From Devosia indica (lineage in GTDB: Bacteria; Pseudomonadota; Alphaproteobacteria; Rhizobiales; Devosiaceae): 64,000 nt of DNA. Below, in pieces: positions 12,015 through 63,503 of the stretch (positions are counted from its first letter, which is position 1; every line of letters begins with the position of its first letter). Under the pieces are notes generated by a model. The model searched no databases, had not been told where the DNA came from, and was given only the letters and a program-made list of their open reading frames with translations. Where the stretch lies: positions 1 to 64,000 of the forward strand of contig NZ_PYVZ01000011.1 in assembly GCF_003056405.1 (NCBI RefSeq), written 5' to 3'. The position numbers and the translations under genes are program-made.

Positions 12015-12870
12015 CATAGACTTCCTTGCGCTTGAGGCCGAACCGCGTTGCGATCTCGTCGACCGCAGCGCGCAGCGGCTGTCCGGCCATGGCCTCGGAG
12101 AGGGCAGCCTGCCAATCCTCGGCAGATGGCGCACTGGGTTCGGCGGCGCCTGCCACGATAATGACCGCCTCGCCCTTGGTGCTCTCCTCGCTGAATTGGC
12201 CGGCCAAGTCGGCAAGCGACCCGCGAAAGGTGCGTTCAAAGCGCTTGGTCAGTTCAAGCGAGACGGCCGCCTGCCGGTTGCCCAGCACGTCGTGCATGCC
12301 GGCAAGGCAGGCGGCGAGGCGACGGGGTGATTCGTAGAACACCAGCGTTTCACGTGAATCCTTGAGTTTTTCCAGTGCATTGGTGCGGGCCCCGCCCTTG
12401 GGCGGCAGGAAGCCGTGAAAGGTGAAGGCATCGGTGGGCAGGCCGGCCACCACCAGCGCCGAGAGCAGCGCCGATGCGCCGGGGATGGGAAAGACCGGCA
12501 GGGCCTGTTCGGCCAGCGCCCGGATGAGCGGGAAACCGGGATCGGAGAGCAGCGGGGTGCCGGCATCGGAAATCAGGGCAATGGCCGCCCCGGCCGCCAC
12601 GCGCGATGCGATCGCCTCTGCCTTGTCGCGCTCATTGTGCTCATGCAACGCCTGGCGCCGGCCCTTGATGCCGTAATGGTCGAGCAATTTGGCCGAAGTG
12701 CGCGTGTCTTCGCACAGCACCAGCTCGGCGCCGGCCAGGGTTTCGAGCGCACGCAGGGTGATGTCACGCAGATTGCCGATGGGCGTCGCCACGACATAAA
12801 GGCCCGGCGCCAAGGGCGGGGCTTCGAACCTGGTGCCGGCAATGAAATAGTCCCTATGCGCCTCACTCAT
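11983..12870 (-). CDS. rsmI: 16S rRNA (cytidine1402-2'-O)-methyltransferase
   Basis: RsmI (295 aa) 2'-O-methylates C1402 of 16S rRNA with S-adenosylmethionine. Family motifs are YVVATPIGNLRDITLRALE at the N-terminus, CEDTRTSAKLL, SDAGTPLLSDPG, PGASALLSAL and FYESPRRL. ATG 12870 is the preferred start; ATGs at 12879-12897 also fit. The gene contains a ParB-type palindrome at 12347-12360, which encodes part of DSRETL. It is divergent from the lpoA-like gene, as in the enterobacterial yraL-lpoA-yraN neighbourhood. Confidence 0.93.
   Translation of the reverse strand: MSEAHRDYFIAGTRFEAPPLAPGLYVVATPIGNLRDITLRALETLAGAELVLCEDTRTSAKLLDHYGIKGRRQALHEHNERDKAEAIASRVAAGAAIALISDAGTPLLSDPGFPLIRALAEQALPVFPIPGASALLSALVVAGLPTDAFTFHGFLPPKGGARTNALEKLKDSRETLVFYESPRRLAACLAGMHDVLGNRQAAVSLELTKRFERTFRGSLADLAGQFSEESTKGEAVIIVAGAAEPSAPSAEDWQAALSEAMAGQPLRAAVDEIATRFGLKRKEVYDAALALKNAQ
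12347..12360 (-). promoter_or_regulatory. parS-like site inside rsmI
   Basis: GTTTCACGTGAATC, core TTCACGTGAA, one base from the parS palindrome GTTTCACGTGAAAC. The changed arm makes a GANTC site (GAATC). It is about 35 kb left of the proposed origin. Confidence 0.6.
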
Positions 12871-19246: not shown

Positions 19247-19260
19247 GTTTCACGTGAATC
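19247..19260 (-). promoter_or_regulatory. parS-like site upstream of dnaJ
   Basis: GTTTCACGTGAATC in the dnaK-dnaJ gap, 145 bp upstream of dnaJ, with a GANTC site in one arm. The preceding CGGGACGGCGCGGC resembles the bases before the parS-like sites at 29656 and 48927. Confidence 0.6.
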
Positions 19261-29601: not shown

Positions 29602-29669
29602 TTCTCGCCTCAAATCTCCCCACTGGGGAGATTTGCCCTGACGGGACGGCTCGAAGTTTCACGTGAATC
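29584..29669. repeat. parS-bearing intergenic repeat, copy R1
   Basis: GCATAGCTCTCATGGCC, then CTCGCCTC, then an 11-bp-arm hairpin AAATCTCCCCA / TGGGGAGATTT (29612-29634), then GGGACGG and CGAAGTTTCACGTGAATCGA. A second copy with the same order lies at 48857-48940. The hairpin could act as a terminator for the upstream Ada-like gene. Confidence 0.8.
29656..29669 (-). promoter_or_regulatory. parS-like site in repeat R1
   Basis: GTTTCACGTGAATC, with GAATC (GANTC) in one arm, 64 bp before the AI-2E family transporter start. Confidence 0.6.
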
Positions 29670-35741: not shown

Positions 35742-36466
35742 GCCGCCCTCAACTTCGCCAATGCTTCACGTGAATCAATGCGCCCGTCATAGAGCGCCCG
35801 GCCGGAAATGGCGCCTTCAAGCACCTGATAGTCGGGATGCGTCATGCGCTCGATATCGTCCATCGAGGCAAGACCGCCCGAAGCGATGACCGGGACCGAG
35901 GTTGCCCGCGCCAGCTCAAGCGTGGAGTCCCAATTGATCCCGGCCAGGACGCCGTCGCGATCAATATCGGTGTAGATAATCGCGGCTACACCAGCGCCCT
36001 CGAAGCGCCTGGCCAGTTCGATCACCGAAAGCTCGGAGGTCTCGGCCCAGCCCTCGACGGCCACCATGCCCTTACGCGCATCAATGCCGACGGCGACCTG
36101 GCCGGGCCATTTTTGGGCCGCCTCTTTCACCAGCGCCGGATCGCGCACCGCGACGGTGCCGAGAATGACCCGGCTGAGACCCTTGTCGAGCCAGGCTTCA
36201 ATATGCCCCAGATTGCGGATGCCGCCACCGAGCTGGACGGGAAAATTCACCGTCTTGAGGATGGCTTCGACCGCCGCGCCATTGACGCTCTCGCCGGCAA
36301 AGGCGCCGTTGAGATCGACCACGTGCAGATATTCAAAGCCCTGGTCCTCAAAGCTCTTGGCCTGCGCGGCCGGATCGTCGTTGAAGACCGTGGCTTCGTT
36401 CATGTCGCCAAGTTTCAGGCGCACGCACTGGCCGTCCTTGAGGTCGATGGCGGGGAAGAGGATCAT
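35738..36466 (-). CDS. hisA: Phosphoribosylformimino-5-aminoimidazole carboxamide ribotide isomerase
   Basis: HisA (242 aa) is an Amadori isomerase of histidine synthesis. The TIM barrel begins [18 protein letters not shown] with catalytic Asp8, and has [17 protein letters not shown] and [12 protein letters not shown]. The ATG 36466 overlaps the hisH stop as ATGA, which decides the start over ATG 36475. The 3' end carries a parS-like site (35763-35776) that encodes DSREAL. Confidence 0.95.
35763..35776 (-). promoter_or_regulatory. parS-like site in the hisA 3' end
   Basis: GCTTCACGTGAATC: core TTCACGTGAA with GAATC in one arm; one further base off the parS consensus than the other copies. 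Confidence 0.5.
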
Positions 36467-46887: not shown

Positions 46888-47328
46888 GGAGAGCAGTTTT
46901 TCCACACTGTCATCCCCAGCTCAAGGCCGATCTGTGATCTGGTCGTGCAAGTCTGGCCCGGGACCAAACTTGTCCCCCTTGGCTAAGAATTTGTTAACAG
47001 TTGAATTCGGAGCCCGGCGAAGCAGGGGCGTGGAAAGGTCTGGGGAAAGCTAGCTCGGGCGATAGAAAGATATGCGCAGGCTCATCCACACCCGGAATCG
47101 AATCATTGACTCGGCAAAGGCCGGATTAACCTCTCGTTAATGAATTGGGCGCGTTAAGACTTCAGTAAGAGTTTGAACTTGATTCACACCCCGTTAACCA
47201 TCCCCTGCGCGCAAGTGTCACTTCATCGCTCGATTGTGGGTGACGAGGAATTGCAGCTAAACACCGCCATAAAGATAAAGAAGCGAAGCAAGAAAGACTC
47301 TTTATAGGGTTTTGGAAGGGATGAACCC
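46888..47328. other. oriC: Chromosomal replication origin (oriC), Cori-like
   Basis: The 441-bp gap between maf (leftward) and hemE (rightward) holds no gene. It contains CtrA boxes (see next entry), DnaA-like boxes TTTTCCACA (46898-46906) and TCATCCACA (47082-47090), each one base from TTATCCACA, and five GANTC sites: 47095, 47100, 47108, 47181 and 47296 (start positions). An AT-rich stretch runs from about 47265 to 47315. Place next to hemE, divergent genes and the nearby parAB-parS cluster match the Caulobacter Cori layout. Exact boundaries are not defined. Confidence 0.75.
46983..47168. promoter_or_regulatory. Three CtrA boxes in the origin
   Basis: CTAA-N7-TTAA (46983-46997), TTAA-N7-TTAA (47126-47140) and TTAA-N7-GTAA (47154-47168). 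The middle box matches the consensus fully. In Caulobacter CtrA binds such boxes in Cori and blocks initiation; the same role here is inferred. Confidence 0.65.
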
Positions 47329-48363
47329 ATGGCTCCGGTGACGCACAAACCATTGCTTGCCACGGTGTTGGGACAGCGTCAGGAACGCCCCCCGATCTGG
47401 ATCATGCGCCAGGCCGGACGCTATCTGCCCGAATATCGGCAGACCCGGGCACAGACCGACGGTTTCCTCGAACTGTGTTACACGCCCGAACTGGCCGTCG
47501 AAGTTACACTGCAGCCGCTACGGCGCTTCGATCTGGACGCAGCCATTCTGTTTTCCGACATTCTGGTGATCCCGGACGCCCTGGGACAGAGCGTGCGCTT
47601 TGCGACAGGCGAGGGCCCCTTGCTCGAGCCGCTCGACGAAAAAGGCATTGATGGCCTCGATCGGGATCGGGCGATGAGCCATCTGGCACCGGTATTTGAA
47701 ACGCTGCGCCGACTTCGCGCTACACTGCCCGCCCAGAAGACCTTGATTGGCTTCTGTGGTGCCCCCTGGACGGTGGCGACCTATATGCTGGGCGGTCGAG
47801 GCTCGCCGGATCAATGGACGGCGCGCCGGTTTGCGCTGGAGCACCCAAAGGCTTTTGACAAGCTGATCGATACTCTGGTGGACACCTCCATCGACTATCT
47901 CGCGGGACAGTTCGAGGCGGGCGCCGATGTGGTGCAGCTTTTCGAAAGCTGGGCGCTCAATCTGGACGATGCCAGTTTTGTCCGTCAGGTCATGGAACCC
48001 AACCGGCGGATTGTCGAAGGCCTGCGTCAGCGGGTCCCCAATGCACCGGTGATCGGGTTTCCGCGCGGCGCGGCAGGCAATCTCCGGCGCTATGCGGAGG
48101 CCACCGGGATCAATGCGCTGGGGATCGACTTCGCCACGCCGATCGATTTCGTCAATACGCATCTGCCGCCCGAGCTTGCTGTGCAGGGCAATCTTGATCC
48201 GCTGCGGCTGGTGGTCGGTGGTGAGGCCATGGAAAGCCAGGCCCGCGCCATTATCGAGGGCTTCGCGAATCGGCCGCATATCTTCAATCTGGGACACGGC
48301 ATTGTCCCCGAGACCCCGATCGCGCATGTCGAACGGCTGGTTGAATTGGTCAAGTGCGGCTGA
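47329..48363 (+). CDS. hemE: Uroporphyrinogen decarboxylase
   Basis: HemE (344 aa) decarboxylates uroporphyrinogen III to coproporphyrinogen III. Family signatures are PIWIMRQAGRYLPEYR at the N-terminus, GFCGAPWTVATYMLGG and NLGHGIVPETP near the end. The ATG at 47329 has GGAAGGG at a good distance. It is the first gene right of the origin. Confidence 0.97.
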   Translation: MAPVTHKPLLATVLGQRQERPPIWIMRQAGRYLPEYRQTRAQTDGFLELCYTPELAVEVTLQPLRRFDLDAAILFSDILVIPDALGQSVRFATGEGPLLEPLDEKGIDGLDRDRAMSHLAPVFETLRRLRATLPAQKTLIGFCGAPWTVATYMLGGRGSPDQWTARRFALEHPKAFDKLIDTLVDTSIDYLAGQFEAGADVVQLFESWALNLDDASFVRQVMEPNRRIVEGLRQRVPNAPVIGFPRGAAGNLRRYAEATGINALGIDFATPIDFVNTHLPPELAVQGNLDPLRLVVGGEAMESQARAIIEGFANRPHIFNLGHGIVPETPIAHVERLVELVKCG

Positions 48364-48856: not shown

Positions 48857-48940
48857 GCATAGCTCTCATGGCCTTCTCGCCTCAAATCTTTCCATCGGAG
48901 AGATTTGCCAGGCGGGACCGCCCGAAGTTTCACGTGAATC
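48857..48940. repeat. parS-bearing intergenic repeat, copy R2
   Basis: The same order as R1: GCATAGCTCTCATGGCC, CTCGCCTC, an imperfect hairpin AAATCT...AGATTT (48884-48906), GGGACCG and CGAAGTTTCACGTGAATCGA. The hairpin arms have diverged more than the flanking blocks. It lies between hemJ and rho and may end the hem transcript. Confidence 0.8.
48927..48940 (-). promoter_or_regulatory. parS-like site in repeat R2
   Basis: GTTTCACGTGAATC with a GANTC site, 165 bp upstream of the rho start and 1.6 kb right of the origin. Confidence 0.65.
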
Positions 48941-50393: not shown

Positions 50394-51686
50394 ATGCAGG
50401 CGGGCGACACCATAATGGCGCTCTCCTCCGGCGTATTGCCGGCAGGTGTTGCGGTCATTCGCCTCTCCGGTCCACGCGTGCAGGAAGCCCTGGACAAGAT
50501 GGCCGGGGGCACACCCAGGCCGCGGCAACTGGCGCTGCGTAAGATTGGTGCAGGCCAAATGCTCGATCAGGGTCTGGTCGCCTGGTTCCCCGCGCCCCAC
50601 AGCTTCACTGGAGAAGATTGCGCCGAGCTGCAGGTGCATGGCTCGCCTGCTGGTGTCAAAGCCATCCTGGCCGAGCTTGGTGGTCTCGGCCTGCGCCTTG
50701 CGGAAGCTGGAGAGTTTACCCGCCGCGCCTTTGAAAATGGCAAGCTTGATCTCGTTGAAATCGAAGGGCTGGGCGATCTGCTGAGCGCCGAGACGGAGAA
50801 GCAGCGCCAGCAGGCCCTGGCGCGTTTTGATGGCCGCCTGACGGAAAAAATCGCGCAATGGCGCGAGAGCCTGCTGGATCTGCGTGCAGAAATCGAGGCC
50901 CGGCTCGACTTCTCCGATGAAGGCGATGTGCCCGAGGCGTTGCCACATCACTGGCATAACCAGCTTGAGGCACTGGAAACAGCGCTCCAGGCAGCATTGG
51001 GTTCTCTTGAAAGCGGCCGGATCGTCCGCGAAGGCATCAGGGTGGCGCTGGCGGGCGCCCCCAATGCCGGAAAATCCAGCCTGATCAATGCCCTGGCAAA
51101 GTCTGACATTGCCATCGTATCGGACGAAGCAGGCACGACGCGTGACGTCCGGGAGGTGCCCCTGGATATTAATGGGCAGCTCTTCATTCTGCTCGATCTC
51201 GCCGGATTGCGCGACAGTGACAGCAAGGCGGAGACCGAAGGCGTACGCCGGGCACATCAGGCCATTGAGATGGCGGACATAGTGCTGTGGCTATCTGCCC
51301 CTGATGTGCCCGATATCCCTGCCCCTGATGTCACTGGCCAAGTGCTGCGCATCGGCACCAAATCGGATCTAGGATACTTGCCAGGGGTGGATGTCAGTAT
51401 CTCGACGCAGTCGCCGGATGATCTGATTGAACTGCGCCGGCGCCTTGATAGATTGGCTGACGGCATGACGGGCGGAGAACCCAGCCTCATCAGTCACGAA
51501 AGAGACCGCCTCGCCCTTGGCGGTGCCGTAGCGGCGCTCGAAGAGACCCGACGCAATCTCGGTGACTGGGAGCTAGCTGCAGAGTCGCTGCGCAGGGCGT
51601 CGGCATCCTTGGAGCGTCTGGTTGGCCGGATAGACGCGGAAAAGGTGTTGGATCGGCTGTTTTCCAGCTTCTGCATCGGCAAGTGA
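50394..51686 (+). CDS. mnmE: tRNA uridine-5-carboxymethylaminomethyl modification GTPase
   Basis: MnmE (430 aa) works with MnmG on wobble uridine 34 of tRNAs. It has the tetrahydrofolate-binding domain, a G domain with [26 protein letters not shown] and LLDLAGLRD, and the C-terminal zinc/redox motif FCIGK. A parS site overlaps its stop codon. mnmG follows after 241 bp. Confidence 0.96.
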
Positions 51687-51698
51687 TTCACGTGAAAC
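51685..51698 (+). promoter_or_regulatory. parS site 1 (mnmE stop)
   Basis: GATTCACGTGAAAC overlaps the TGA of mnmE. Core TTCACGTGAA; the left arm GATTC is a GANTC site. Confidence 0.8.
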
Positions 51699-51831
51699 GT
51701 GTAGCAGTGGTTCAGCCAAAAACGGCACGGTGGCCCGGACCAAACCAAGACGATCACAAGAACCAGACCCTATTGATAAACATGTCCGTCGTTACACAGT
51801 TGCGATACTACCCTACCCAGGTATCGAAATT

Positions 51832-51845
51832 GATTCACGTGAAAC
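51832..51845 (+). promoter_or_regulatory. parS site 2 (mnmE-mnmG gap)
   Basis: GATTCACGTGAAAC in the 241-bp gap; the gap contains no other gene but is open in the mnmG frame. Confidence 0.8.
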
Positions 51846-51879
51846 ATGCTCGGTGAGACCGGCAAGCAAGCGGACAATT

Positions 51880-51893
51880 GATTCACGTGAAAC
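51880..51893 (+). promoter_or_regulatory. parS site 3 (mnmE-mnmG gap)
   Basis: GATTCACGTGAAAC 48 bp after site 2 and 35 bp before the mnmG start. Confidence 0.8.
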
Positions 51894-51927
51894 ATTGGCC
51901 TATGTCAGGCGCCTTGGAGAAATTGCC

Positions 51928-53790
51928 ATGACTGACTATGCCGTCATTATCGTCGGCGGGGGCCATGCAGGCACGGAAGCCGCAGCAGCCTCGGCGCGCC
52001 TCGGCGTTCCCACTGCGCTGATTACCCATCGCTTTGACACCATTGGCGAAATGAGTTGCAATCCGGCTATCGGCGGATTGGGTAAGGGTCATCTTGTGCG
52101 CGAGATCGACGCCTTGGACGGGCTGATGGGCCGCGTGGCTGATGCCGCTGGTATTCAGTTTCGGGTGCTCAATCGCCGCAAGGGTCCAGCGGTGCGAGGC
52201 CCACGCGCCCAGGCCGATCGCAAGCTTTATCGCCAGGCCATGCAGGCCGCAATCTCTGCGCAGGACAATCTGGACGTCATTGAAGGGGAGGTCGACGACC
52301 TTGAGGTCACAAACGGCCGGATCAGTGGCGTCGTGCTGCTTGATGGTCGCCGGATTGGGACCAAGGCCGTGGTGCTCACTACGGGCACATTCCTGCGCGG
52401 TCTGATCCATCGTGGCGAAGAAACGGTGCCGGCCGGCAGGCTCGGGGAAAAGCCAGTGCTGGGCCTCTCGACGCGGCTGGAAGGACTGGGTTTGCAGCTT
52501 GGCCGGCTGAAGACCGGAACGCCGGCGCGCCTGGACGCCACAAGCATCGACTATGCCGTCCTTGAGGAGCAGCCGGGTGATACTCCGCCAGAAGCCTTTT
52601 CGGCACTGACCACCGGCATCACAACGCCGCAGGTTTCCTGCCACATCACGCGGACAACGGCCGAAACACACCGCATCATCCAGGACAACTTGCATCGTTC
52701 GGCGATGTACTCGGGCCGCATTCAATCGCGCGGTCCACGCTATTGCCCCTCGATCGAGGACAAGGTGGTCCGCTTTGCCGACCGGGACAGCCACCAGATT
52801 TTTCTCGAACCCGAAGGATTGGATGATCAGACGGTCTACCCCAATGGGCTGTCGACCTCATTGCCGGCAGAGGTGCAGATGGCGTTCCTGCAATCCATGC
52901 CCGGTCTTGAGTCGGTCCGGATCATCCGGCCGGGCTATGCCATTGAATATGACTATGTCGATCCAAGAGAGTTGAAGCCAACTTTGGAGGTCAAAAAGCA
53001 GCCGGGCCTCTATTTGGCGGGTCAGATCAACGGTACCACCGGGTATGAGGAAGCCGGCGCCCAAGGCCTACTGGCCGGCGCCAATGCCGCACTGGCCGTT
53101 AAGGGCGAAGTGGCCCTGGTGCTGTCACGGACGGAAAGCTATCTCGGCGTCATGGTCGATGATTTGGTCACGCGTGGTGTCAGCGAGCCTTACCGGATGT
53201 TTACCTCGCGCGCCGAGTTCCGTCTGCATTTGCGGGCGGACAATGCGGATCAGCGCCTGACGCCCTTGGGGTTGGAGCGTGGGCTGGTTGGTACAGAACG
53301 CAGCGATGTCTTCTCCAAACGTCAGTCGGCGCTGATCCAGGCGCGCAGCTTGCTACATAAACTGTCTGTTTCTCCCAATGAGGCGCGCAAGGCTGGCCTG
53401 GCGGTAAATGAGGATGGCAAGCGGCGGACGGCGTTTGAGCTGTTGTCCTACCCCGACTTGGAAGCGGCTGATCTGGCAGGGCTTTGGCCCGAACTGTCCT
53501 CGATGGATTCGGCTATCGTCGAGCAAGTCTCGATCGATGCCCAGTATGCAGTCTATCTGGACCGCCAGAAGTCGGACATTGAGGCAGTGCGACGGGATGA
53601 GCAGCGCGCTATTCCGGCTACGCTGGACTATATGGCTATTCCAGGTCTTTCTATGGAACTGCGGCACAAATTGGCCAATGCGCGCCCGCAAACCATTGCA
53701 CAAGCACAGGCATTGGACGGCATGACGCCGGCCGCCATCACACTTCTGCTCGCGGTAATCCGTCGCGGTCAACTGTCCAAGGTCGGCTGA
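51928..53790 (+). CDS. mnmG: tRNA uridine-5-carboxymethylaminomethyl modification FAD enzyme
   Basis: MnmG (620 aa) binds FAD through [21 protein letters not shown] and has the conserved [20 protein letters not shown] and [14 protein letters not shown] blocks. ATG 51928 ([12 protein letters not shown]) has GGAGA 9 nt upstream and matches homologues. The frame stays open for another 66 codons upstream, crossing parS sites 2 and 3; this is treated as untranslated. Confidence 0.97.
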
Positions 53791-54438
53791 ATGCAGGACG
53801 TTCAAGCCGTTGCGCGCTATGCGTCCGTTCTGTCACGCCCTGTTGACGCGGTCGTACGCGACCTAGAATCCTATGCCAAGTTGCTGACCAAATGGCAGTC
53901 AGTGCAGAATCTGGTTTCACGTGAAACATTGGCTCAGATCTGGACGCGGCATTTTGCTGATAGTCTACAGGTGCTCAGCCTGATGACATTAGCTGACCGG
54001 CTCTGTGTCGATATCGGTAGTGGCGGGGGCTTTCCGGCCCTCCCCATGGCGATTGCCAGCAAGGGCCTGGATCGCCACTTCGTCCTGATTGAGCCAACGT
54101 CCCGGAAAGTCAGCTTTTTGCGTACCGTGGCACGTGAGCTTGATCTGAATGTCACGGTGATCGGGCGGCGCTGCGACCAGATTGATTCACGTGAAACAGG
54201 CGTCCCAGACGTCATCACGTCGCGTGCTTTGGCGGCGATGCCTCAATTATGTGCCTGGATGGCCCCGTTTTTCGGCCCAAACAGCAGGGCCTTGCTGCAT
54301 AAAGGACGGGAACATGTTGAAGAGCTCGTGGAATCGGGTGCGCAATGGCATCATGACGTGCTAGTAAGGGTCAGTGACACAGATCCTGGCGGCGTGATCC
54401 TGACGGTTACGAATCTGCGCCGGAAAACAATGCGTTAG
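53791..54438 (+). CDS. rsmG: 16S rRNA (guanine527-N7)-methyltransferase
   Basis: RsmG (215 aa) methylates G527. The SAM loop is VDIGSGGGFPAL (73-84); NLVSRETLAQIWTRHFADSLQ at 40-60 is the conserved N-terminal block and is encoded across a perfect parS. It starts immediately after the mnmG stop and precedes parA, the order seen widely. Confidence 0.95.
   Translation: MQDVQAVARYASVLSRPVDAVVRDLESYAKLLTKWQSVQNLVSRETLAQIWTRHFADSLQVLSLMTLADRLCVDIGSGGGFPALPMAIASKGLDRHFVLIEPTSRKVSFLRTVARELDLNVTVIGRRCDQIDSRETGVPDVITSRALAAMPQLCAWMAPFFGPNSRALLHKGREHVEELVESGAQWHHDVLVRVSDTDPGGVILTVTNLRRKTMR
53914..53927 (+). promoter_or_regulatory. parS site 4, perfect palindrome in rsmG
   Basis: GTTTCACGTGAAAC, fully symmetric and the canonical parS core. 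It encodes the VSRET peptide of RsmG. Confidence 0.9.
54184..54197 (+). promoter_or_regulatory. parS site 5 in rsmG
   Basis: GATTCACGTGAAAC encodes the DSRET peptide at about RsmG residue 132; GANTC in the left arm. Confidence 0.8.
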
Positions 54439-54456: not shown

Positions 54457-55257
54457 TTGGCACCCCGGATATTGACTTTGGCCAATCAGAAGGGTGGCGT
54501 CGGCAAGACGACGACTGCCATCAATCTGGCGACCGCTCTGGCGGCCATCGGTGAACGCGTCCTGATCGTCGATCTAGACCCTCAAGGCAACGCCTCCACT
54601 GGTTTGGGCATTTCGCGGACGGATCGCGCCCTGTCAGCCTATGATGTGCTGGTAGGTGAGGCGAGTGTGCCGCAGGCCGCGGTGATGACCAGCGTGCCCA
54701 ATGTGGCCATTGTGCCGTCGACCATGGACCTGCTCGGCGTCGAGCTGACCATTGCCGATCAGGCCGATCGTGCCTTCAAGCTCCGTAATGCGTTCAAGAA
54801 TCTGGATGAACTGCGGATCAACGACCAGTCTATCAGCTATATCCTGATCGATTGTCCGCCCTCGTTGAACCTGCTGACGGTCAATTCGCTGGTCGCGGCC
54901 GACGCCGTGCTGGTGCCGCTGCAATGCGAGTTCTTCGCGCTTGAAGGGTTGAGCCAGTTGCTGCAGACCATCGAGCAGATCCGTTCAACGCTCAATCCGC
55001 GCCTGTCCATCCAGGGCGTGGTGATGACCATGTTTGACAAGCGCAACAACCTGTCCGAGCAGGTGCTGAACGATGTGCGGAGCGAAATGGGTGAGCTGGT
55101 CTATGAGACGGTGATTCCGCGCAATGTGCGGCTCAGCGAGGCGCCGTCCTATGGCAAGCCGGCGCTGCTTTATGATCTCAAATGTGCGGGAAGCCAGGCC
55201 TATCTTCGCCTTGCCACCGAAGTAATCCGTCGTGAGCGACGGTTGAATGCTGCCTAG
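54457..55257 (+). CDS. parA: Chromosome partitioning ATPase ParA
   Basis: ParA (266 aa) is the deviant-Walker ATPase that moves ParB-parS complexes. It starts LTLANQKGGVGKTTTAINLA (deviant Walker A KGGVGKTT at 12-19), then VDLDPQGNASTGLG and IDCPPSLNLLT. The start codon is TTG at 54457 with CGGAGG upstream. It is 9 bp before parB. Confidence 0.97.
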   Translation: MAPRILTLANQKGGVGKTTTAINLATALAAIGERVLIVDLDPQGNASTGLGISRTDRALSAYDVLVGEASVPQAAVMTSVPNVAIVPSTMDLLGVELTIADQADRAFKLRNAFKNLDELRINDQSISYILIDCPPSLNLLTVNSLVAADAVLVPLQCEFFALEGLSQLLQTIEQIRSTLNPRLSIQGVVMTMFDKRNNLSEQVLNDVRSEMGELVYETVIPRNVRLSEAPSYGKPALLYDLKCAGSQAYLRLATEVIRRERRLNAA

Positions 55258-55266
55258 GAGCTCAAC

Positions 55267-56142
55267 ATGACCGACAAACCAACCCGACTGGGCCGGGGCC
55301 TTGCCGCGCTGATTGGTGATATGGCGGCCATTGAGGGCGCGCGGGTGACCGAGTCGTCCGGTGGCAGCAAGCGCCTCCCCGTTGATTTCATTATCGCCAA
55401 TCGGTCCAATCCGCGCCGCAGCTTTGACGCTGAACAGCTTGAAGAGCTGACCAACTCGATCCGCGAGAAGGGTGTGATGTCGCCGCTCCTGGTGCGGCCG
55501 ACGGATGATCCGAATATTTTCGAGCTGATCGCCGGGGAGCGGCGCTGGCGGGCGGCGCAGAAGGCCGGCTTGCATGATGTGCCGGTCATCGTTCGCGAGG
55601 TCGATGACAAGGAAGCGCTTGAGCTGGCGATCATCGAAAACGTGCAGCGTGCCGACCTCAATCCGCTCGAAGAAGCGCTGGGCTACGGGCAGTTGATCGA
55701 GCAGTTTGAGTACACGCAGCAGGATCTGGCGCAGGTAATCGGCAAGTCGCGTTCGCATGTCGCCAATACGTTGCGGCTGCTCAAGCTACCCGAGGATGTG
55801 CGCGGCATGGTGTCGAGCGGCACCTTGACCGCCGGGCACGCCAGGACGTTGATTACGGCTGAGGACCCGGCCGCGTTGGCCCGCCAGATCGTTGACAAAG
55901 GGCTTTCGGTGCGAGAGGCGGAAGCGCTCAGCCAGCAGCGTGACCTGCCCAAGCGGAAGCCTGCGGCTACGCCGGCGCAGCGTGACGCGGATACGCTGGC
56001 ACTGGAGCGACGCCTGGCCGACGCGCTTGGCCTCAGCGTCGCGCTCAATCATTCCGAGCGCGGGGGCAAGGTCGAGATCCGCTACAAGACGCTGGAGCAG
56101 CTTGACGACATCTGCCTGCGCCTGACCGGTCGCACCAACTAA
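55267..56142 (+). CDS. parB: Chromosome partitioning protein ParB
   Basis: ParB (291 aa) is the parS-binding CTP-dependent clamp. The N-domain has the CTP-binding LVRPTDDPNIFELIAGERRWRAAQKAGL with GERRWRA, then the HTH QQDLAQVIGKSRSHVANTLRLLKLP, and a C-terminal dimerisation domain. It should bind the palindromes listed in this window. The terminator at 56171 follows. Confidence 0.97.
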   Translation: MTDKPTRLGRGLAALIGDMAAIEGARVTESSGGSKRLPVDFIIANRSNPRRSFDAEQLEELTNSIREKGVMSPLLVRPTDDPNIFELIAGERRWRAAQKAGLHDVPVIVREVDDKEALELAIIENVQRADLNPLEEALGYGQLIEQFEYTQQDLAQVIGKSRSHVANTLRLLKLPEDVRGMVSSGTLTAGHARTLITAEDPAALARQIVDKGLSVREAEALSQQRDLPKRKPAATPAQRDADTLALERRLADALGLSVALNHSERGGKVEIRYKTLEQLDDICLRLTGRTN

Positions 56143-56160: not shown

Positions 56161-56198
56161 GTTCCACGTGAAACCGCCTCGTCCTGGGCGGTTTTTGC
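56161..56198 (+). terminator. parB terminator overlapping parS site 6
   Basis: GTTCCACGTGAAAC (56161-56174, one base from parS) runs directly into AAACCGCC / GGCGGTTT (56171-56178 with 56187-56194) plus TTTGCG, a rho-independent terminator. The last four bases of the palindrome are part of the stem. Confidence 0.75.
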
Positions 56199-56221: not shown

Positions 56222-57244
56222 CTAATGGGTGGCCGCCATCATGCACAACGCCAAGGTGGTGCGGCGCAGTATTGCATCGGCCAGCGTCGGCTTGCGGCGC
56301 GAATCCGATACCCCTTGCAGCAGCCGTTCCACGGCCTGGGAGAGGGCTGGGTCCGTCCACAGGCGTAGCTGCTGCTCCAGGGCGCCCATGCGTGAGAAGT
56401 GCGGCTTGGGCCGCTGACCGTCAAGAACGGCCCGGGCGGTCTTGCCGCTATCGACTTCGGTACGCCAGCGGCGGAGGTTGGCGAAGTGATTCGTCAGCAT
56501 GGCCAACAATTGCTGCGGATTGACATTGGCCGCCAGCGCTCGATTCAGGGCCAGTTCAAGCCTTTCTGCATGCCCACCGCCAGTGGCATCGAGGATGGCG
56601 TCGATGGCAAGAGCGCCATTGTCGGCGCAGAGCAGCAGCACATCCTCGCGCGTCAGCACCTTGCTCGAAGCGGCGTAGAGCGTGAGTTTCTCCAGCTCGC
56701 GACGCGTTACTTCCCGGTCATTGCCGAGAATTTCGCGCAATGTGGGCACGACATCGCTATCGGTCCTGATGCCGGCCTGATTGAAGGTTTCGCGCATCAG
56801 CGCCATCAGGGTTTCGTCTGAATCCGGGTAGCAGGGCAGGGCGCGGCCGAGCTTGGCCGCCTCGACCAGCGAGCGCAGTGCATCGCGTGGGGTCAGATTG
56901 TCTGCCTCGAGCACGATGGCCGTGCCGCCGGGGTCGTCCCGCAGCTCGGTGAGTGGCATGACCAGCGCCTTGGTGGCATTGCGCACACGAATGATGCGCT
57001 TGCCGCCAAACAGGGAGACTGAGCGGGCCTCCAGCACCAGTTGAGACGGATCGGAGGCCAGTTCCGGTCCGTCAAAGATCGTGACATTCGCCGATGCCGG
57101 GTCGTCTCCGCTCAAATGGCGAATCAGGCGCTGTGCGGTCTCGCGCACCAGGCCGCCATCCGGCCCATAGGCGAGGAAAATCCCCTCGCTGAGATCGGGG
57201 CGCGCCAAGTAGCGCGCCACTTCATGGGCCTTGAGGGCCGTCAT
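56222..57244 (-). CDS. holA: DNA polymerase III delta subunit
   Basis: HolA (340 aa) opens the sliding clamp as part of the clamp loader. Landmarks are GPDGGLVRETAQRL near the N-terminus, LFGGKRIIRVRNATKAL, a middle domain with REILGNDREVTRRELEKLTLYA, and the C-terminal helical collar. It is convergent with parB. The leuS stop and holA start touch, with no lptE between. Confidence 0.92.
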   Translation of the reverse strand: MTALKAHEVARYLARPDLSEGIFLAYGPDGGLVRETAQRLIRHLSGDDPASANVTIFDGPELASDPSQLVLEARSVSLFGGKRIIRVRNATKALVMPLTELRDDPGGTAIVLEADNLTPRDALRSLVEAAKLGRALPCYPDSDETLMALMRETFNQAGIRTDSDVVPTLREILGNDREVTRRELEKLTLYAASSKVLTREDVLLLCADNGALAIDAILDATGGGHAERLELALNRALAANVNPQQLLAMLTNHFANLRRWRTEVDSGKTARAVLDGQRPKPHFSRMGALEQQLRLWTDPALSQAVERLLQGVSDSRRKPTLADAILRRTTLALCMMAATH

Positions 57245-63489: not shown

Positions 63490-63503
63490 GTTTCACGTGA
63501 ATC
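63490..63503 (-). promoter_or_regulatory. parS-like site between xthA and rplS
   Basis: GTTTCACGTGAATC with a GANTC site, 16.3 kb right of the origin; it lies between the rplS terminator and the xthA start. Confidence 0.6.

Follow-up and report, generated by a model that had tools for sequence, protein, structure and literature searches.

We analysed the first 64 kb of Devosia indica contig 3 (genome 3.95 Mb in 69 contigs; hereafter the window), which carries parA, parB, and a cluster of sites resembling the chromosomal partition site parS (Table 1). Twelve matches to the perfect site GTTTCACGTGAAAC with at most three mismatches were found in the window, compared with an expectation of 1.40 (standard deviation, 1.17), and none of 100 shuffled windows reached 12. 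Exactly one arm of the site contains GANTC, the target of the methyltransferase CcrM, in 10 of the 12, as both the motif search and a listing of GANTC positions indicated; an earlier note on this DNA, which had reported one GATTC-type arm in 10 of 12 sites, was thus confirmed. Only 5 of the 12 sites lie inside the span that it gave, 51685-54197. A genome-wide search allowing at most one mismatch gave 12 sites, comprising ten copies of GATTCACGTGAAAC, one perfect site, and the GTTCC site at 56161. Eleven of these fall in the window with parA and parB, while one GATTCACGTGAAAC copy lies on another contig; the site at 35763 carries two mismatches and is hence outside this genome set. That at least 10 of 11 one-mismatch sites should be a single variant has P = 6e-13 under a crude null of even spread over the 21 distinct one-mismatch variants.

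Table 1. Features of the window. mnmE, mnmG, rsmG, rho, maf, and hemE were named by eye from open reading frames (ORFs), without a family search.
Feature	Position	Strand	Basis
parS-like site GATTCACGTGAAAC, one GANTC arm, within minus-strand ORF	12347..12360	-	motif search
parS-like site GATTCACGTGAAAC, one GANTC arm	19247..19260	-	motif search
parS-like site GATTCACGTGAAAC, one GANTC arm, between ORFs	29656..29669	-	motif search
parS-like site GATTCACGTGAAGC (also given as GCTTCACGTGAATC), GANTC arm facing GCTTC arm	35763..35776	-	motif search
Candidate oriC, between the maf and hemE ORFs, 5 GANTC	46905..47330		AT content, motifs
parS-like site GATTCACGTGAAAC, one GANTC arm, upstream of ORF read as rho	48927..48940	-	motif search
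parS-like site GATTCACGTGAAAC, one GANTC arm, overlapping mnmE stop	51685..51698	+	motif search
parS-like site GATTCACGTGAAAC, one GANTC arm, mnmE-mnmG gap	51832..51845	+	motif search
parS-like site GATTCACGTGAAAC, one GANTC arm, mnmE-mnmG gap	51880..51893	+	motif search
GAATC (GANTC), 2 bp upstream of perfect parS, codons CAG AAT C	53907..53911		GANTC listing
Perfect parS GTTTCACGTGAAAC within ORF read as rsmG (VSRET)	53914..53927		motif search
parS-like site GATTCACGTGAAAC, one GANTC arm, within rsmG (DSRET)	54184..54197	+	motif search
parA, between rsmG and parB	54457..55257	+	ORF; NCBIfam ParA-/MinD-like matches below cut-offs
parB (Spo0J-type)	55267..56142	+	TIGR00180 190 bits, cut-off 58; 6t1f match E 2.6e-77
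parS-like site GTTCCACGTGAAAC directly after parB, no GANTC inside	56161..56174	+	motif search
parS-like site GATTCACGTGAAAC, one GANTC arm, between ORFs	63490..63503	-	motif search

In the alignment with 6t1f, the window ParB shares TQ and GKSR of the helix-turn-helix (HTH) with Caulobacter ParB; DNA-contact residues of ParB are listed in PMC7383237 (this and the other PMC articles are cited from excerpts). Judged from sequence, the window sites are the chromosomal parS of a ParABS system, with ParB binding predicted. The methylation-dependent timing proposed in the earlier note presupposes a ccrM gene, and a CcrM-type enzyme is indeed encoded in the genome. Its C-terminal RAMA domain (PF18755) scored 64.7 bits against a cut-off of 35.2, its ORF contains the DPPY motif of an N6-adenine methyltransferase, and its best NCBIfam match was the CcrM equivalog NF050803, over profile positions 2-349 of 350, yet at 625 bits, under the cut-off of 830. 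Going by its name, NF050803 may have been modelled on the Caulobacter enzyme. The host enzyme is of the CcrM type and is predicted to methylate GANTC; the scarcity of GANTC described below bears on this prediction only indirectly.

The excess of GANTC-bearing sites, for which the earlier note had looked to relatives, is kept in the family, GATTCACGTGAAAC being present in 90 of 91 sampled genomes. Own-genus genomes (39) held 348 GATTC-arm sites, 55 perfect sites, and 19 other one-mismatch sites. In 15 family genomes including that of D. indica, 154 sites were found with at most two mismatches (reversed-pattern control, 1): 107 were GATTC/GTTTC, 21 perfect, 12 GATTC/GCTTC, 4 GATTC/GTTCC, and 10 others. 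The 80 family loci gave 236 GATTC/GTTTC, 73 perfect, 16 GATTC/GCTTC, 15 GATTC/GTTCC, and 18 GTTCC/GTTTC sites. Across the order Hyphomicrobiales, GATTCACGTGAAAC was present in 69 of 150 genomes, 6 of the 69 being in the family, and in the class sample it was present in 6 of 144, two of which (our own genome and G058) belong to the order. Perfect sites numbered 70 in the 39 parB loci of the order outside the family (up to 20 kb each), sites with one GATTC arm 41, and other single-mismatch sites 13; the reversed-pattern control returned none at up to one mismatch and 3 at up to two. In a phylum sample of 396 genomes, counted by us from its rows, one-arm variants at arm position 2 stood at A:C:G = 10:0:0 in our own genome, 72:7:4 in 55 other order genomes, and 7:6:1 in the 228 genomes that lie beyond the class.

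The two arms of a site were then compared in copies gathered from these loci. Rows were kept only if the core was CACGTG, the arms had no more than three mismatches in total, and at least one arm had fewer than two; regions were fetched without G237 and G271, in which the ParB match was weak or missing. Of 548 site copies, 354 had exactly one GANTC arm and none had two. The family contributed 425 copies from 55 genomes, with a GANTC in one arm of 311, in neither arm of 114, and in both arms of 0; the corresponding counts for the 123 copies from the order loci were 43, 80, and 0. Among the 114 family copies lacking a GANTC arm, 55 are the site in rsmG and, by our count, about 44 more follow parB. 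GATTCACGTGAATC was not found in any of the 314 fetched loci, a result limited to them since no genome-wide search for GATTCACGTGAATC was made. Grouping of the sites by blastn was imperfect, several neighbouring sites having been combined in a single group of 212. Within groups, the one-GANTC-arm form is kept in 16 of 17 copies of site 12347 (the other being perfect), all 20 copies of site 35763 are identical, and 45 of 50 copies of site 54184 are identical. The asymmetry of these parS sites is conserved and non-random, a new property in a known kind of site.

The choice of base at position 2 depended on the partner arm. After deduplication of the family set by genus and site group, the A:C ratio at this position was 58:5 where the partner arm lacked GANTC and 0:8 where it contained one (Fisher P = 1.2e-7). 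Where position 4 was not T, so that GANTC was impossible, the ratio was 4:3 (P = 0.028 against the context of a partner without GANTC). The raw counts in the three contexts were 307:5, 0:26, and 7:7; the order set held too few C arms, at 42:4 without and 0:0 with a GANTC partner. The three contexts were set after the data had been seen, and the copies share ancestry, so that these counts overstate independence. Because the choice between A and C depends on GANTC in the partner arm, a symmetric additive model of ParB affinity fails. A model that would fit gives a benefit to the first GANTC and sets against it a cost for ParB that is larger for A than for C; the dependence points at GANTC itself, beyond what ParB tolerates. 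We put at about 0.65 the probability that GANTC itself is the feature kept by selection, with one CcrM site per parS in this lineage.

The main alternative concerns ParB specificity alone: the ParB of the lineage would accept or prefer A at position 2 of one arm, and GANTC would be a by-product. We consider this less likely than not, since a symmetric additive preference cannot favour A over C in one arm and disfavour it in the other (58:5 versus 0:8). A correlate in the protein does speak for it, in that alignment column 155 of ParB is Q, N, A, or S in 34 of 37 sequences from GATTC-arm loci and E or D in 12 of 20 from loci without such arms; these are raw counts, uncorrected for phylogeny, and 18 of the 37 sequences come from the family (L221, which has no parB, was left out). 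By our mapping, this column corresponds to Caulobacter residue 163, beside the DNA-contacting Q162 (PMC7383237). The recognition helix GKSRSHVAN, by contrast, is nearly identical in both ParB groups. Asymmetry of parS as such has a precedent, as a Caulobacter figure legend describes the GTGAAA second half as conserved (PMC5815017). In the window ParB, the residue after the HTH TQ, at Caulobacter position 163, is Q.

The absence of A/A sites alongside the occurrence of A/C sites would also be expected if imperfect palindromes were favoured because they form weaker hairpins or cruciforms, with A as the cheapest break and A/A restoring the palindrome. This is very improbable, as perfect palindromes are common (73 in the family loci and 70 in the order loci), and such breaking explains neither why A is preferred to C nor why a GANTC adjoins the perfect site in rsmG. 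The least probable of the explanations weighed here is a coding or historical origin of the A, through codons or stop codons, or through common descent of the sites. Site 51685 does share the GA of its GATTC with the TGA stop of the ORF named mnmE (stop and site together, 51684-51698), a site at equal distance from mnmE was found in most family loci examined, and in rsmG the T may be fixed by the GTT codon of VSRET. Against this, the remaining sites are intergenic or lie in different frames, and the same rule holds in the ungrouped sites, 24 of 29 of which carry GATTC in one arm only, although common ancestry may go unseen where grouping failed.

Changes at other arm positions were counted as well. 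Among 66 deduplicated family sites, position 3 was changed in 4 A arms and 1 partner arm, and position 4 in 4 A arms and 8 partner arms; the 43 order sites held one position-3 change in an A arm. Freedom at position 3 (GACTC, GAGTC) was considered as a signature of GANTC and is suggestive only, as two of the changes fall in rsmG codons and one of them is synonymous. By our tally, 8 of the 10 GANTC arms in the window point to the presumed origin. This origin is a candidate oriC, presumably placed next to hemE as in Caulobacter. Its AT content is 0.49, compared with 0.38 in the window, and it holds one of the seven one-mismatch DnaA boxes of the window as well as, by eye, a TTAA-N7-TTAA that we take to be a CtrA-like motif. 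A directional role of the asymmetric arm was dropped for the mnmE-mnmG gap, where both orientations occur across the order (10 and 6). Upstream of mnmE the orientations are biased (13 and 2), for which shared ancestry may be part of the cause.

GANTC is otherwise scarce in this DNA. The window contains 78, compared with 221 expected from base composition and 265 from a first-order Markov model, an approximately 3-fold shortage, so the parS sites that bear GANTC run against the trend. Its density is 59.5 per kb inside the parS-like sites and 1.07 per kb outside them in the window, and across 762 kb of family loci the parS-like sites hold 124 of 1002 GANTC. Avoidance of GANTC did not account for the difference between lineages, since the median observed/expected ratio was 0.42 in the 19 order loci with GATTC arms and 0.40 in the 20 without. 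Outside the family, GANTC occurs at about 5-7 per kb within 100 bp of parS and at 1.6-2.6 per kb at 500-1000 bp, for both site types; this enrichment was dropped as evidence because it likely reflects the intergenic setting.

The earlier note had stated that GANTC is lacking only at the rsmG site and the site after parB. This stands for the latter, where the nearest listed GANTC is at 56301, but not for the rsmG site, which has a GAATC just outside its arm (Table 1). The rsmG site was perfect in all 53 copies of its family group, and 2 more perfect copies form a separate group. The upstream GAATC, which arises from the CAG AAT C of Q-N-L codons, is present in 50 of these 55 rsmG-type copies. 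AAT encodes this Asn in 0.94 of 54 copies. In a post hoc test of a single column, this fraction ranked first among conserved Asn columns, of which five genes supplied 27 (median, 0.61); the preceding CAG is unremarkable, a fraction of 0.9 being reached in 11 of 37 conserved Gln columns. Near the start of rsmG, VSRES replaces VSRET in 5 of the 39 order loci (L166, L170, L175, L195, and L196), and this replacement creates a GANTC in the right arm.

If GANTC is what selection keeps, a mechanism can be proposed. Most parS sites of the family would keep one arm that CcrM can read (GATTC) and one that it cannot. Methylation of the GATTC arm would put one N6-methyladenine at position 2 and a second, on the complementary strand, across from position 4; both would fall in the half-site read by the ParB recognition helix. 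This helix lies in the major groove of the half-site, and guanine 1 is read by R173 (PMC7383237). Because the methyl groups would lie within the half-site that ParB reads, an effect of methylation on ParB binding is plausible. Each parS would be fully methylated before replication and hemimethylated after passage of the fork, early in replication if the origin is at the proposed place. In Caulobacter, most GANTC sites remain hemimethylated after the fork until CcrM acts late (PMC5172544). The methylation state could then raise or lower ParB nucleation or clamp loading at the GANTC arm, which would couple sister-origin segregation both to replication and to the late activity of CcrM. The arm that cannot be methylated might act as an anchor that keeps a floor of binding, which would explain why two GANTC arms are not found. 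Tuning of ParB loading by methylation is the mechanism we favour, though tentatively, at somewhat under even odds. We are more hesitant still about the wider picture, in which the centromere of Devosia and its relatives would be an epigenetic device, with one CcrM site in or beside nearly each parS: ParB nucleation on each sister origin would depend on full or hemimethylation, and replication and CcrM would clock partition.

The relation between the two proteins could also be the reverse, with ParB covering GANTC from CcrM and leaving a lasting hypomethylated mark at parS that GcrA or the replication machinery would read. We regard such shielding as improbable. ParB leaves parS when it closes as a clamp, which weakens the case for lasting cover. 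MucR does shield GANTC from CcrM in Caulobacter and Sinorhizobium, and methylation of GANTC at the Caulobacter parS locus was not significantly changed under constitutive methylases (PMC5172544). No parS is evident in the top-50 table of hypomethylated sites in the same excerpts, whose text does not give the level (high or low) at the locus.

Several observations weigh against selection for GANTC or against the role proposed for it. RAMA was detected in 88 of the 91 family genomes and in 149 of the 150 order genomes, yet 81 of the same 150 lack GATTCACGTGAAAC, so CcrM alone is no predictor of the arm. CcrM is reported in nearly all alphaproteobacteria (PMC11514494), and the GATTC arm is near chance in the class outside the order. 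In the other orders of the class, GATTCACGTGAAAC was found in 4 of 142 genomes, at one site each (we estimate about 0.02-0.03 chance occurrences of an exact 14-mer per genome of 3-4 Mb), and the position-2 variants stood at A:C:G = 0:5:0 in the 112 other class genomes of the phylum sample. No GATTC arm occurs in 20 of the 39 order loci outside the family, and G150, a family genome in which RAMA was detected, has no GATTCACGTGAAAC and only two sites, both perfect. A nearby GANTC accompanies only 7 of 69 perfect sites of the order outside the family, indicating no clear compensation, and none of the 18 perfect family sites outside the rsmG type, 17 of which follow parB, has a GANTC within 13 bp. 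The site after parB has a GATCC arm in 5 genomes, that is, A at position 2 without GANTC, which favours ParB specificity alone. The same explanation gains from matches outside the alphaproteobacteria. At least 117 named stretches were matched, of which the 80 listed were looked at; among the matches listed, bacteria outside the class have GATTC-arm sites no more than a few kb from parAB or mnmEG, such as Tomitella (L044), an actinobacterial metagenome-assembled genome (L099), Blautia (L070), and the non-alphaproteobacterial L237, L238, L239, and L243. From these positions, ParB can probably use the arm without CcrM. Experiments in other species weigh against the proposed role as well. Caulobacter without ccrM is reported to segregate its chromosomes correctly (PMC3973325), although the class sample suggests that lineages of this kind may not have these sites. 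More telling is Agrobacterium, which we place in the same order: on depletion of CcrM, ori2 is delayed and ori1 is not obviously changed (PMC11514494).

Correlating the GATTC arm with the presence of CcrM was uninformative, because RAMA is near-universal and its family misses are fragmented assemblies in which a gap and an absence are indistinguishable (G172, G180, and G208, with 230, 330, and 420 contigs and 4, 2, and 5 GATTC-arm sites, respectively). Some sequence variants were also recorded. The site after parB reads GATCCACGTGAAAC in L256, L264, L270, L273, and L294, with GATC in place of GANTC. In the order member L180 (G257), all three sites with at most one mismatch (2070, 7539, and 12364) read GTTTCACATGAAAC and none is canonical, which makes a shift of the parS core in one family possible. 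At least six Nocardia records (L045, L061, L071, L081, L100, and L118) carry GATTCACGTGAAAC among the matches listed; none of them adjoins a detected ParA or ParB in its locus.

If selection for GANTC is real, it offers a testable link between the replication-dependent methylation state and the loading of ParB, in a group of bacteria in which the timing of partition relative to replication is, in our view, unsettled. A single genome supplies natural controls, namely a perfect site with GANTC outside its arms and a site without any GANTC. Even if methylation proves irrelevant, the rule of asymmetry would be new for the recognition of sites by ParB. Compared with the parS of Caulobacter and Bacillus ParABS systems, the sites described here have the same CACGTG core and arms, the same clustering near parAB, and a ParB of the 6t1f type; they differ in having one GANTC arm at most sites of the lineage, a feature near chance in the class outside the order. 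Dam and SeqA at E. coli oriC likewise use the hemimethylated interval after the fork as a timer, but they act on initiation and involve no ParB. The earlier note knew of no described coupling of this kind, and in listings and abstract openings from the open literature, outside which most subscription papers lie, we recognised no description of GANTC inside chromosomal parS arms, although methylation of GANTC at the Caulobacter parS locus had already been assayed (PMC5172544). CcrM sites also lie near centromere sites in repABC replicons (Agrobacterium chromosome 2 and the 3parS of Paracoccus pAMI4), where a role of the M2 motif in partitioning has been suggested (PMC11514494, PMC9040568). These replicons have another type of RepB and parS, and the excerpts place their GANTC outside the half-site bound by ParB: in promoters, within repC, or some 500 bp away from parS3. 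Another parallel, in which a DNA-binding protein and CcrM share one site, is occlusion by MucR (PMC5172544). MucR, however, is a promoter repressor, whereas ParB is a centromere protein, and according to the same paper hypomethylated promoters do not in general keep their functions from one species to another.

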